From Sulfurimonas hydrogeniphila (lineage in GTDB: Bacteria > Campylobacterota > Campylobacteria > Campylobacterales > Sulfurimonadaceae), in contig NZ_CP035534.1 in assembly GCF_009068765.1 (NCBI RefSeq), forward strand, positions 1,798,001 through 1,862,000: 64,000 nt of DNA, in the 5' to 3' direction. Both the position numbers and the translations under genes were made by a program. Positions 8,269 to 10,003 of the stretch are shown in pieces. Within the stretch, counting starts at the first letter, position 1, and the number at the start of each line of letters is the position of its first letter. Below the pieces are notes generated by a model. The model was not told the DNA's origin. It did not search any database and saw only the letters and a program-made list of their open reading frames with translations.

Positions 8269-8514
8269 TTAGCTCATGATGTGAACTTGGTACATGTAGT
8301 CATTGTCTGACAATCCGTACTTTACTTCACTCATATAAAAACTTTTTCCCATTGCTTCGTAATGGTCTTGCAGTTCGAGTAAATCTTTATGTGAATTTTC
8401 TCTGTCAAAATAAAATATTATACTCTCATTTTTTTCTACTTCTGCATCCAATTTAGCTAAATCAACTTTTTTCGGTTTTGCTTCTAAATCAGTTCTTGCA
8501 AATTTCAAATCCAT
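8269..8514 (-). CDS. HP0268-family small nuclease
   Basis: An 81-residue soluble protein whose C-terminal half ([25 protein letters not shown], then [11 protein letters not shown]) resembles Helicobacter pylori HP0268, reported to have nicking endonuclease and ribonuclease activity. The family is limited to Campylobacterota and is one of the best lineage markers in this window. The ATG at 8512-8514 has AGGAATAAGTA just upstream. It is the first gene of the operon with miaB (10-nt gap). Confidence 0.8.
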
Positions 8515-8548
8515 TACTTATTCCTTTAATTTATTCTATACATTCAAG

Positions 8549-8707
8549 GGAACCTTTTTATTCCCTATTTACATGCCAAAGAAAATATACCCTCATGGGG
8601 TACCTTGATTCCTTTGACTGCGTTAATACCCCGAGGGTACTTCCTCGCTTCACTTACAGCGCACAGGTTTCCTTCGACAGGAAGTCCACGCCGCATTGCG
8701 GCTTTTT
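8549..8707 (+). ncRNA. Putative structured RNA or attenuator upstream of nusA
   Basis: The 352-bp gap between the HP0268-like gene and nusA contains an unusually G+C-rich block. Reading the plus strand: a -10-like TATACA (8537-8542); a hairpin AGGGAA/TTCCCT (8547-8566); a 13-bp stem in which TACCCTC-AT-GGGGTA (8588-8602) pairs with TACCCCGAGGGTA (8627-8639) around a pyrimidine-rich 24-nt loop; an alternative pairing region (ACTTCC 8639-8644 with GGAAGT 8680-8685, or TTCCT with AGGAA); and a terminator ending at 8707. No reading frame is evident. It could be a free-standing small RNA or a leader attenuator of nusA. It does not match the conserved cores of tmRNA, RNase P RNA or SRP RNA that I looked for. 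Confidence 0.5.
8690..8707 (+). terminator. Intrinsic terminator of the putative RNA upstream of nusA
   Basis: A perfect 5-bp all-G/C stem GCCGC/GCGGC with an ATT loop is followed at once by TTTTT on the plus strand. It lies 160 bp ahead of the nusA start in the same orientation. It therefore ends an upstream transcript and cannot serve the minus-strand gene at 8514. Confidence 0.75.
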
Positions 8708-8735
8708 ATAACTCATAAAAGTTTTGGATTATACT

Positions 8736-8781
8736 CAAAATCTACTAAAAATTGGGTTAAAGCTATTTTTAGTAGATTTTG
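8736..8781. repeat. 17-bp perfect inverted repeat in the nusA promoter region
   Basis: The arms AAAATCTACTAAAAAT (8737-8752) and ATTTTTAGTAGATTTT (8765-8780) are exact inverted copies, extended by one C-G pair, with a 12-nt centre. The right arm runs directly into GGATACAAT, a candidate -10 for nusA. It could be a regulator-binding site or an RNA hairpin. Confidence 0.7.
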
Positions 8782-8866
8782 GATACAATTATATACTTCA
8801 ATTAAGAAATCCCCCGTCATAGCAATTATCAATGTCAGATTTCTTAAAAATACTAAGGAAATACCT

Positions 8867-10003
8867 ATGGAAAAAATTTTAGATATAGCCGAAGCAATCG
8901 GTCATGAAAAGGGTTTACAACCTGAAAAAGTAATGGAAGCACTGAAAACTGCTTTTGTACAAACTGCAAAACGTGTAATCGGACAAAACTTTGCTTTTGA
9001 AGCAGATGTTGATGAAGATACAAAAAATTTAAAAATTATTCAGACAATCACAGTTGTTGCTGATAATGATGAAAAACTCCAGGATGAAGAGATTGCCCCC
9101 GCATATATTTCACTTACCGAAGCAAAAGAGTATGATGATCAGGTAGAAATCGGAGATCAACTCCAAATTGACCATGACCTTGAGGACTATGGCAGAACAG
9201 CCGCTTCACAACTTCACCGTGAAATAGAGTACCATATACAACGACTTGTGGAAGATGAAATTTATAACAAATACAAATCCAAAGTAGGTACACTTGTCAG
9301 CGGTCGTGTTACACGTGTTGATGCACAAAATAACACATACATCGAAGTGGATGAAATTCGTGCAGTTTTACCAATGAAAAGCCGTATAAAAGGCGAAATA
9401 TTTGAAGTGGGTGATCACATAAAAGCGGTTGTAAGGCGTGTAAATATGGACAAAGAAAACGGGATGCAAATCGAACTTTCTCGGACAAGTCCAAAATTTT
9501 TAGAAGCACTCTTGGAACTTGAAGTGCCAGAAATTGCAGAGGGTTCGGTCATCATAGAAAAGTCAGCCCGTATTCCGGGTGAGAGAGCAAAAATCGCTCT
9601 TATAAGCACACACCCGCAAGTGGATGCTGTCGGTGCAACAGTCGGTGTCAAGGGTGTGCGTATCAATGCGGTAAGCCAAGAGTTGATTGGTGAAAACATT
9701 GACTGTATAGAGTATACTACCATTCCTGAACTTTTTGTATCACGTACAATGAGTCCGGCTATCATCTCTCATGTAGAAATTGTCAAAAACGAAGAGGGCG
9801 AAAATGAAAAAGCCATCATTACACTGCCTGCCGACCAAAAAAGCAAGGCAATCGGAAAAAGCGGTATCAACATCCGTCTGGCTTCAATGCTCACAGGTTT
9901 ACAGATAGAACTTGTAGAAAATGATGCTGTCACTACAAATGAAGACGGTACCGTAGAAGAGAAAAAAGAGAGTGTTGATGCGTTGGAGGCACTTTTTAAC
10001 TAG
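8867..10003 (+). CDS. nusA: Transcription termination/antitermination factor NusA
   Basis: RNA-polymerase-associated factor controlling pausing, termination and antitermination. I choose the ATG at 8867, which has AAGGA 8 nt upstream; the open frame extends back to 8696 but only through the promoter region. The 378 residues hold an N-terminal RNA-polymerase-binding domain (1-125), an S1 domain (VGTLVSGRVTRVDAQNNTYI), KH1 (ERAKIALIS) and KH2 (KSKAIGKSGINIRLASMLTG). The C-terminal acidic repeats of E. coli NusA are absent, as in many bacteria. The usual neighbours rimP and infB are not adjacent; nusA stands alone here. Confidence 0.95.
   Translation: MEKILDIAEAIGHEKGLQPEKVMEALKTAFVQTAKRVIGQNFAFEADVDEDTKNLKIIQTITVVADNDEKLQDEEIAPAYISLTEAKEYDDQVEIGDQLQIDHDLEDYGRTAASQLHREIEYHIQRLVEDEIYNKYKSKVGTLVSGRVTRVDAQNNTYIEVDEIRAVLPMKSRIKGEIFEVGDHIKAVVRRVNMDKENGMQIELSRTSPKFLEALLELEVPEIAEGSVIIEKSARIPGERAKIALISTHPQVDAVGATVGVKGVRINAVSQELIGENIDCIEYTTIPELFVSRTMSPAIISHVEIVKNEEGENEKAIITLPADQKSKAIGKSGINIRLASMLTGLQIELVENDAVTTNEDGTVEEKKESVDALEALFN

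Follow-up and report, generated by a model that had tools for sequence, protein, structure and literature searches.

REP sequences carry a GTAG motif 5′ of an imperfect hairpin and are linked to RAYTs, with copies flanking the Y1 transposase gene, whereas riboswitch-type leaders consist of a conserved multi-hairpin leader followed by a hairpin able to cover the Shine-Dalgarno (SD) sequence and a competing hairpin. MITEs such as ERIC and Correia, in the accessible portion of one account (PMC10969869), are short, non-coding sequences present in many intergenic copies near genes, which may change expression through RNA; the element analyzed here shares these traits, but differs from MITEs in that it has no terminal inverted repeats, no helper transposase identified in a search confined to the Y1 family, and loops of conserved sequence and stems that covary, as in a structured RNA. 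The BOX elements of Streptococcus pneumoniae, in the accessible text of Croucher et al. 2011 (PMC3049150), are, like the present element, small interspersed modular repeats with a predicted RNA fold if co-transcribed, with modules that may be absent or repeated, slow turnover, and a probable influence on the genes transcribed with them. The same text also reports that BOX has terminal inverted repeats and target duplications, whereas the termini of our element show no inverted repeat; conversely, the fixed place of our element directly before the SD sequence, with the SD inside it, is not described for BOX in that text. By analogy of organization rather than of letters, the element would work most like a BOX-type modular interspersed repeat that became, or carries, a translational leader.

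The window (the whole stretch of DNA analyzed, 64,000 nt of the Sulfurimonas hydrogeniphila contig NZ_CP035534.1) contains, upstream of nusA, a segment originally predicted to encode a small RNA or a nusA attenuator. Judged from the sequence, this segment belongs to a family of dispersed modular elements that encode a conserved RNA fold. The element is ∼128 nt long, and the window copy, a minus-strand match to covariance model R1 at positions 8522–8706 (61.8 bits), reaches 185 nt owing to two inserts. It reads right to left and has the same orientation as an 81-aa gene of the HP0268 family (PF18618; 8269–8514, minus strand, ATG starting at 8514), lying between the start codon of this gene and a conserved promoter-like box, so that it would be the 5′ leader of HP0268, whose SD it carries at its own 3′ end. 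The HP0268 assignment comes from Pfam, and the product has no NCBIfam match. The span first proposed, 8549–8707, covers most of the element but omits its 3′ part, 8522–8548, with the SD hairpin.

In the minus-strand reading, copies generally begin with P0 and P1, followed by a two-pair mini-hairpin closed by GTTA, the motif CGTAG, P2 with a loop that is mostly TTAC, an A+T-rich link, the stretch GGTTYCCTT...AAGGA, which can form either P3 or P4, and the start codon. In the window, the 5′ end is formed by P0, a variable palindromic hairpin (GCCGCATTGCGGC, 8690–8702) that in same-locus copies elsewhere keeps its pairing with different letters, and by the conserved hairpin P1 (8666–8687), in which GGACTTCC and AAGGAAACC enclose TGTCG, the family form being GGGCTTCC TGCCG AAGGAAACC. 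Insert 1 (38 nt, 8627–8664), which sits inside the small GTTA-type hairpin separating P1 from P2, holds the palindrome TACCCCGAGGGTA. The fold alignment and the R1 match place P2, a long variable stem of TCAAAGGAAT and ATTTTCTTTGG, at 8575–8619, with insert 2, a palindromic module of about 20 nt, in its loop (8588–8607). The hairpin P3 (GGGAAT...GGTTCCC, 8548–8565) competes for the anti-SD CCTT with P4, an A+T-rich hairpin (CCTT...AAGG, 8523–8549) able to cover the SD, which, as a sequence match, is AAGGA at 8522–8526. All these parts lie on the minus strand.

With its two inserts, the window copy is a poor representative of the family; in this disrupted form it is not matched by the domain-A model R2 at E ≤1e-4. 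Among 105 R1 matches, extra stretches of at least 12 nt occur in the P2 loop (seven rows), in the mini-hairpin between P1 and P2 (four rows, not all with the same insert), and in the P4 loop (two rows, being one copy fetched twice). The GTACCC..GGGGTA part of insert 1 is common to the same-position inserts of four other loci (L050, L153, L177, and L395). The 20-nt module is present or absent by genome: at the HP0268 locus it is found in G117 and is lacking in G041, G101, and G106, and at hom it is found in L067 and L069 and is lacking in L048. Thus, the element combines a modular make-up, optional internal modules, and an RNA fold in the manner of BOX. A separate locus of the same genome (L009:1440–1540), which by eye is an IS3-type transposase region, contains a stretch like the GC-rich insert module (GCACCCCAAGGGCA...TGCCCTTGGGGTGC) beside GAGCGAAGCGAGGAA.

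The RNA fold is well supported by covariation. Compared with dinucleotide shuffles, the segment 8541–8715 has a better fold on each strand (z of −3.15 on plus and −3.96 on minus; none of 200 shuffles did as well in either case), the minus strand standing out more. As first proposed, a structured RNA with competing stems is indeed encoded here, and the suggested alignment of relatives revealed strong compensatory change: among 18 copies aligned by MAFFT without structure, 94.1% of the cells are standard pairs, compared with only 35.5–52.9% in slid-partner controls, 19 of the 34 pairs changed on both sides, and none of 500 shuffles did as well on any of the five measures. RNAalifold recovers the same helices unaided. 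In the 105 R1 matches (103 distinct), drawn from a run of R1 over 100 sources, 95.1% of the cells are paired and compensatory changes (591 cells) affect 33 of the 34 pairs, these values being from an alignment fitted to the model. One position inside P4 forms a standard pair in only 1 of the 18 seed copies. Loop letters are conserved as well as stems, and CGTAG 5′ of P2 is the consensus in both alignments, with few one-letter variants. At the HP0268 locus across genomes, P0 takes the forms GCCGC/GCGGC, GCCAC/GTGGC, GCCAT/ATGGC, and GCCGT/GCGGC (with one G-T pair), and P1 is CTTTC/GAAAA or CTTCC/GGAAA. Because the HP0268 copies of G000, G041, G101, G106, and G117 have a common P2 stem, they are probably orthologous, with the compensatory changes falling in P0 and P1.

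The letters and hairpins of the original prediction are therefore present and real, but the strand, the gene, and the kind of element differ. The locally high G+C was noted correctly (53% in 8601–8700 vs. 23–30% in the 100-base windows of 8451–8600 and 8701–8850). The 13-bp bulged stem exists as letters, TACCCTC...GAGGGTA and GGGGTA...TACCCC, but joins the two inserts of a larger element: each insert holds a TACCC...GGGTA-type self-palindrome, so that the two can pair with each other and give rise to the long stem. Likewise, the GCCGC/GCGGC terminator, GCCGCATTGCGGC followed by TTTTT, is P0 seen from the wrong strand. A terminator scan of 8300–8900 gave two sites against a shuffle mean of 0.2, and such a terminator-like site on the plus strand speaks for the attenuator or small RNA; the T run after P0 on that strand, however, is the A-rich left end of the element on the other, and P0 cells are 91.7% paired across the 103 distinct rows, so the hairpin is found in nearly all copies.

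Against the attenuator stands the arrangement of promoter-like boxes, which are sequence matches assigned from conservation, not from mapped transcript starts. The likely −10 box of the HP0268 transcript, TATAAT at 8728–8733 on the minus strand, belongs to a TATAATnCA box that points away from nusA in 30 of 30 nusA loci; a TATAAT-like box pointing to nusA occurs in one-letter variants, judged by eye in printed stretches, and in the window is TACAAT (8784–8789, plus strand), which is probably the −10 box of nusA and lies outside the element, 78 nt before the nusA ATG. A sigma-70 scan requiring a −35 box found no promoter in 8300–8900. In all 3 element-bearing loci of the 30 (G000, G041, and G101), both boxes lie on the nusA side of the element, which places it in the divergent HP0268 5′ UTR and not in the nusA leader, and the other 27 loci, with no R1 match at E up to 1, still keep both boxes. 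These conserved divergent boxes and unoccupied loci led us to set aside a nusA-strand attenuator between the nusA promoter and nusA. A segment search of the window's own genome and 40 relatives found no conserved nusA leader, but instead repeat pieces upstream of quite different genes. A free small RNA fares no better, the element falling within the HP0268 5′ UTR as delimited by the conserved boxes, and a trans-acting role is unsupported: the pyrimidine-rich loop belongs to the P2 region. We consider an attenuator or free small RNA almost certainly incorrect.

The family is, by its sequence matches, widespread in Sulfurimonas and related genera, with presence at individual genes varying among close relatives. 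At E ≤0.001, R1 has matches in 125 of the 135 genomes of the genus, where no more than 25 candidates per genome were scored, so that per-genome counts saturate and are lower bounds. In a phylum sample, with eight candidates scored per genome, R1 matches 92 of 397 genomes, covering 17 of 68 genera, own genus included. The P1 pattern alone, with two mismatches allowed, is found in 70 of the 135 genus genomes, compared with two hits in total for the reversed control. Nine single-contig genomes have 7–24 R1 matches each, 109 in all, including 8 in the window's own genome, and in seven genomes the R2 matches (E ≤1e-4) number 6, 6, 7, 10, 27, 37, and 10. Scanning named genomes for the motif yielded at least 120 stretches from Sulfurimonas, Sulfuricurvum, Sulfurospirillum, Helicobacteraceae, Campylobacterales, and related names, with three stretches, among the matches listed, coming from one MAG titled only "Proteobacteria bacterium."

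Comparison with Rfam, which had been recommended for the original prediction, gave no family matching the element: in Rfam 15, searches of the whole window at gathering score, and of the gap, four canonical copies, and nine loci (distant copies and copies of a sister 5′ domain) at permissive thresholds, returned only the adjacent rRNA and tRNA genes, besides hits that scored under the gathering threshold. A blastn search of plasmid and phage collections with one canonical copy produced no match. In the open-access literature we found no description of the element, which is no proof of absence; the accessible text of PMC3847290, PMC8865925, and PMC12306157 does not describe it, the last, a survey of REP sequences, giving there only palindrome counts for Sulfurimonas gotlandica. 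Some weak matches among the 109 have the sister 5′ domain, in which, by eye, AACTTTAGTCGCC..GGCGCAAGCGGAGT, a hairpin, and ACGGACTAATA, with a possible closing helix TTAGTC/GACTAA, precede the same SD module. It was seen in 11 loci (L185, L186, L188, L190, L191, L194, L195, L196, L200, L201, and L204), before dnaK-, flgG-, transketolase-like, and other genes, as read by eye, and has no Rfam match in the five loci searched (L185, L190, L194, L195, and L201).

Placement relative to genes was examined for 89 of the 109 matches in the nine single-contig genomes, by searching for a start codon within −12 to +15 nt of the element 3′ end that opens an ORF of at least 50 aa. All 42 examined matches of at least 100 bits have a start codon 0–11 nt past the element end (40 ATG; 36 at 6–9 nt), a position toward which strong matches are biased because R1 itself includes the SD, ending in AAGGA; the seeds of R1 were found via P1 or similarity to the window, not via the SD. 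In a 43rd strong match (L055), the ATG is at 6 nt. At the other element end, taken as a control, a start codon was present in 7 of the 42. Weaker matches have a start codon in 10 of 21 cases (60–100 bits) and in 17 of 26 (below 60 bits).

NCBIfam names 19 of 20 chosen downstream proteins: FlgG, PpiC and a NifU-like protein (both below cut-off), L19, L27, L7/L12, EF-P, HypB, L9, HypA, DnaK, GroEL, IlvC, the isopropylmalate dehydratase large subunit (LeuC-like), homoserine dehydrogenase, LuxS, adenylate kinase, NusB, and ClpX. Further genes downstream of R1 matches were named by eye. No common pathway is evident among the 19, in contrast to what a riboswitch would require. The element does resemble SD-sequestering riboswitch-type leaders in its multi-hairpin leader, SD-covering hairpin, and competing hairpin, but departs from them in the lack of an evident common downstream pathway, in mobile-like turnover, and in having no Rfam match.

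Several copies lack a downstream SD that they could control. In G056, the element lies directly before 16S rRNA (two copies read, one confirmed with Rfam), in three genomes before tRNA-Trp, and in G392 between tRNA genes; in G297, one of four similar places inspected holds a divergent pair, flanked by tRNA-Ile and 23S, and in L070, L168, and L169 the element is antisense beside the stop codon of rpsL, a gene named by eye. The 16S rRNA, tRNA-Trp, tRNA-cluster, and rpsL-antisense copies are all of this kind. Such placements weigh against a dedicated cis-regulator (a riboswitch, thermosensor, or protein-binding leader) of one regulon, distributed by vertical descent and selection, not mobility, as do the disparate downstream genes and the variable occupancy of the same gene in relatives whose proteins are 90–100% identical. 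The P3/P4 alternatives at the SD, the recurrence, across several genomes, before genes of which NCBIfam names one representative each (nifU-like, hypA, hypB, dnaK, hom, luxS, and leuC), and the nearly identical P2 within the hom, hypA, and hypB groups would fit such a regulator, which we nonetheless regard as distinctly unlikely.

Gain and loss are evident at several genes. Among the nusA loci, those of G056 and G102, with NusA identities of 99% and 98%, lack the element, and that of G110 has, by eye, an apparent P4 remnant; beyond the 30 loci, G135, G048, G128, G106, and G117 also have the element before HP0268. The flgG site is filled in one of five genomes (G000 only) and the ppiC site in two of five (G000 and G041, the latter copy internally deleted). 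At rpmA, the site is filled in G056, G102, and G041 and empty in two of six genomes (G000 and G101); in G098 it is cut by a contig end, yet ends in like letters. Filled and empty sites at the same gene thus occur between relatives with 90–100% identical proteins, and because the element is absent in close relatives at some of the same genes, it evidently comes and goes. The many dispersed copies with presence/absence between close relatives are as expected of MITEs. Terminal inverted repeats, by contrast, are not apparent: with the element borders of the covariance model, the first 20 nt and the reverse complement of the last 20 have 6.7 matches in the 42 strong copies, compared with 7.3 (SD 1.5) after shuffling. 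There was no clear case of target duplication; by eye, flank-like repeats (ACAAAAT...) are present on both sides at ppiC, not at flgG or rpmA.

Overall, similarity among copies that share a gene does not clearly exceed that among copies at different genes, which argues against vertical descent as the sole explanation and points to repeated arrival or stem exchange as well as descent. Identity of P2 is 0.694 for same-gene and 0.663 for different-gene copies, with 178 of 2000 label permutations as high (541 for P0 and 763 for P1); in the hom, hypA, hypB, phoU, purS, and hemE groups, P2 identity is 0.88–1.0. At rpmA, the copies of G056 (L243) and G041 (L245) have a similar unusual P4 loop, and their P0, P1, and P2 stems are replaced, still pairing, which suggests stem exchange between copies.

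Such behavior could also be that of a selfish structured repeat without host function, with hairpins kept for movement (through a single-stranded DNA or RNA intermediate, or hairpin repair) and the pre-SD place being the least harmful or a targeted insertion site. In G341 (Sulfurospirillum), domain A is repeated head to tail every 91–93 nt (arrays of 4, 3, and 3 copies and four pairs), and tandem full units, each including the SD, precede HP0268 in G048 and G128, with full-unit arrays in L394 and L395. Together with the inserts in several loops, the copies without any SD, and a likeness of same-gene copies that hardly exceeds that of different-gene copies, as if the same genes were hit repeatedly, these arrays favor the selfish account. 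It is harder to reconcile with the sense orientation of strong copies with the SD inside (a trait biased by the SD in R1), with loop letters conserved besides stems, and with compensatory P0 and P1 changes among the probably orthologous HP0268 copies. We judge it possible, though on balance somewhat improbable.

A more specific version of mobility invokes REP/REPIN-type palindromes moved by a RAYT (Y1) transposase. REP sequences are palindromes with GTAG 5′ of an imperfect hairpin, and our element has the conserved CGTAG directly 5′ of the imperfect P2 hairpin; it is, however, larger and directional and carries an SD module. Matches to Y1_Tnp (PF01797) were found in 14 of 18 element-rich genomes vs. 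6 of 14 element-poor or element-free ones, and among the 6 element-poor genomes with a match, 2 have weak matches only and 1 short fragments only. Nevertheless, at six Y1_Tnp loci, up to 1.5 kb each side, there were no R2 matches at E up to 1, so that no copies flank the transposase genes tested, and there is no Y1_Tnp match in G052, with 20 R1 matches, in G297, in G020, or in the 68%-complete G016. A RAYT-driven origin is thus unsupported and, in our assessment, highly improbable. Three Y1_Tnp, RAYT-like loci have other repeats of their own (L389, L390, and L392), e.g., TTTAGCCCTGACCCC arms in L389 and GGTGCCTGACACCC in L392.

We favor, with a probability of roughly 0.55, a mobile interspersed repeat that putatively acts in cis on translation or mRNA stability via competing hairpins. 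A non-autonomous mobile repeat would spread and settle beside SD-like sequences, often those of housekeeping genes, and, once transcribed, would act in cis. P0, P1, and P2 might cap the transcript and protect or present its 5′ end; the 3′ part could toggle, with P4 covering the SD and P3 taking the anti-SD strand and so freeing it. In the window, the element would thereby control how HP0268 and the genes that follow are translated, or how stable their mRNA is. Averaged over 43 copies, the probability that the SD is unpaired is 0.16 for P4 by itself, 0.54 in the whole element, and 0.70 without the element, and CCTT pairs upstream, as P3, in 32 of 40 copies, with a mean z of −1.1 vs. upstream shuffles. 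Because a mononucleotide-shuffled element leaves the SD equally open (0.54), the P3/P4 switch is only suggested by these predictions, and 5′-end protection by P0–P2 would be an equally tentative idea. Also weighing against the favored reading are the copies that no SD follows, the lower share of start codons at weaker matches, the P4 position that seldom pairs in the seed copies, and the poor state of the window copy. A bolder and, to our mind, fairly unlikely proposal is a new class of mobile riboregulator, in which a structured RNA module with its own switchable ribosome-binding site would move to SD-like sequences, perhaps through an RNA or single-stranded intermediate, and give unrelated housekeeping genes and rRNA and tRNA operons the same translational control.

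The element would represent a large structured-RNA leader family, with no Rfam 15 match, in Campylobacterales such as Sulfurimonas, Sulfuricurvum, and Sulfurospirillum, joining two usually separate things, namely, interspersed repeats subject to gain and loss and a cis-acting RNA that covaries and contains the SD. According to the accessible text of PMC3847290, 5′ UTRs of Campylobacter jejuni average about 31 nt, so leaders of this type would stand out. Since close relatives offer both filled and empty sites, an effect on expression can be tested directly. Pipelines unaware of the element may label its pieces as terminators or small RNAs. Between the divergent promoter boxes of the window lies a strong A+T-rich inverted repeat, CAAAATCTACTAAAAATTG...CTATTTTTAGTAGATTTTG (8734–8782), which is partly kept in relatives. 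The nusA/HP0268 gap of G098, G007, and G117 (L020, L028, and L397) harbors other, unrelated-looking hairpin-rich insertions, as if it were an insertion hot spot.
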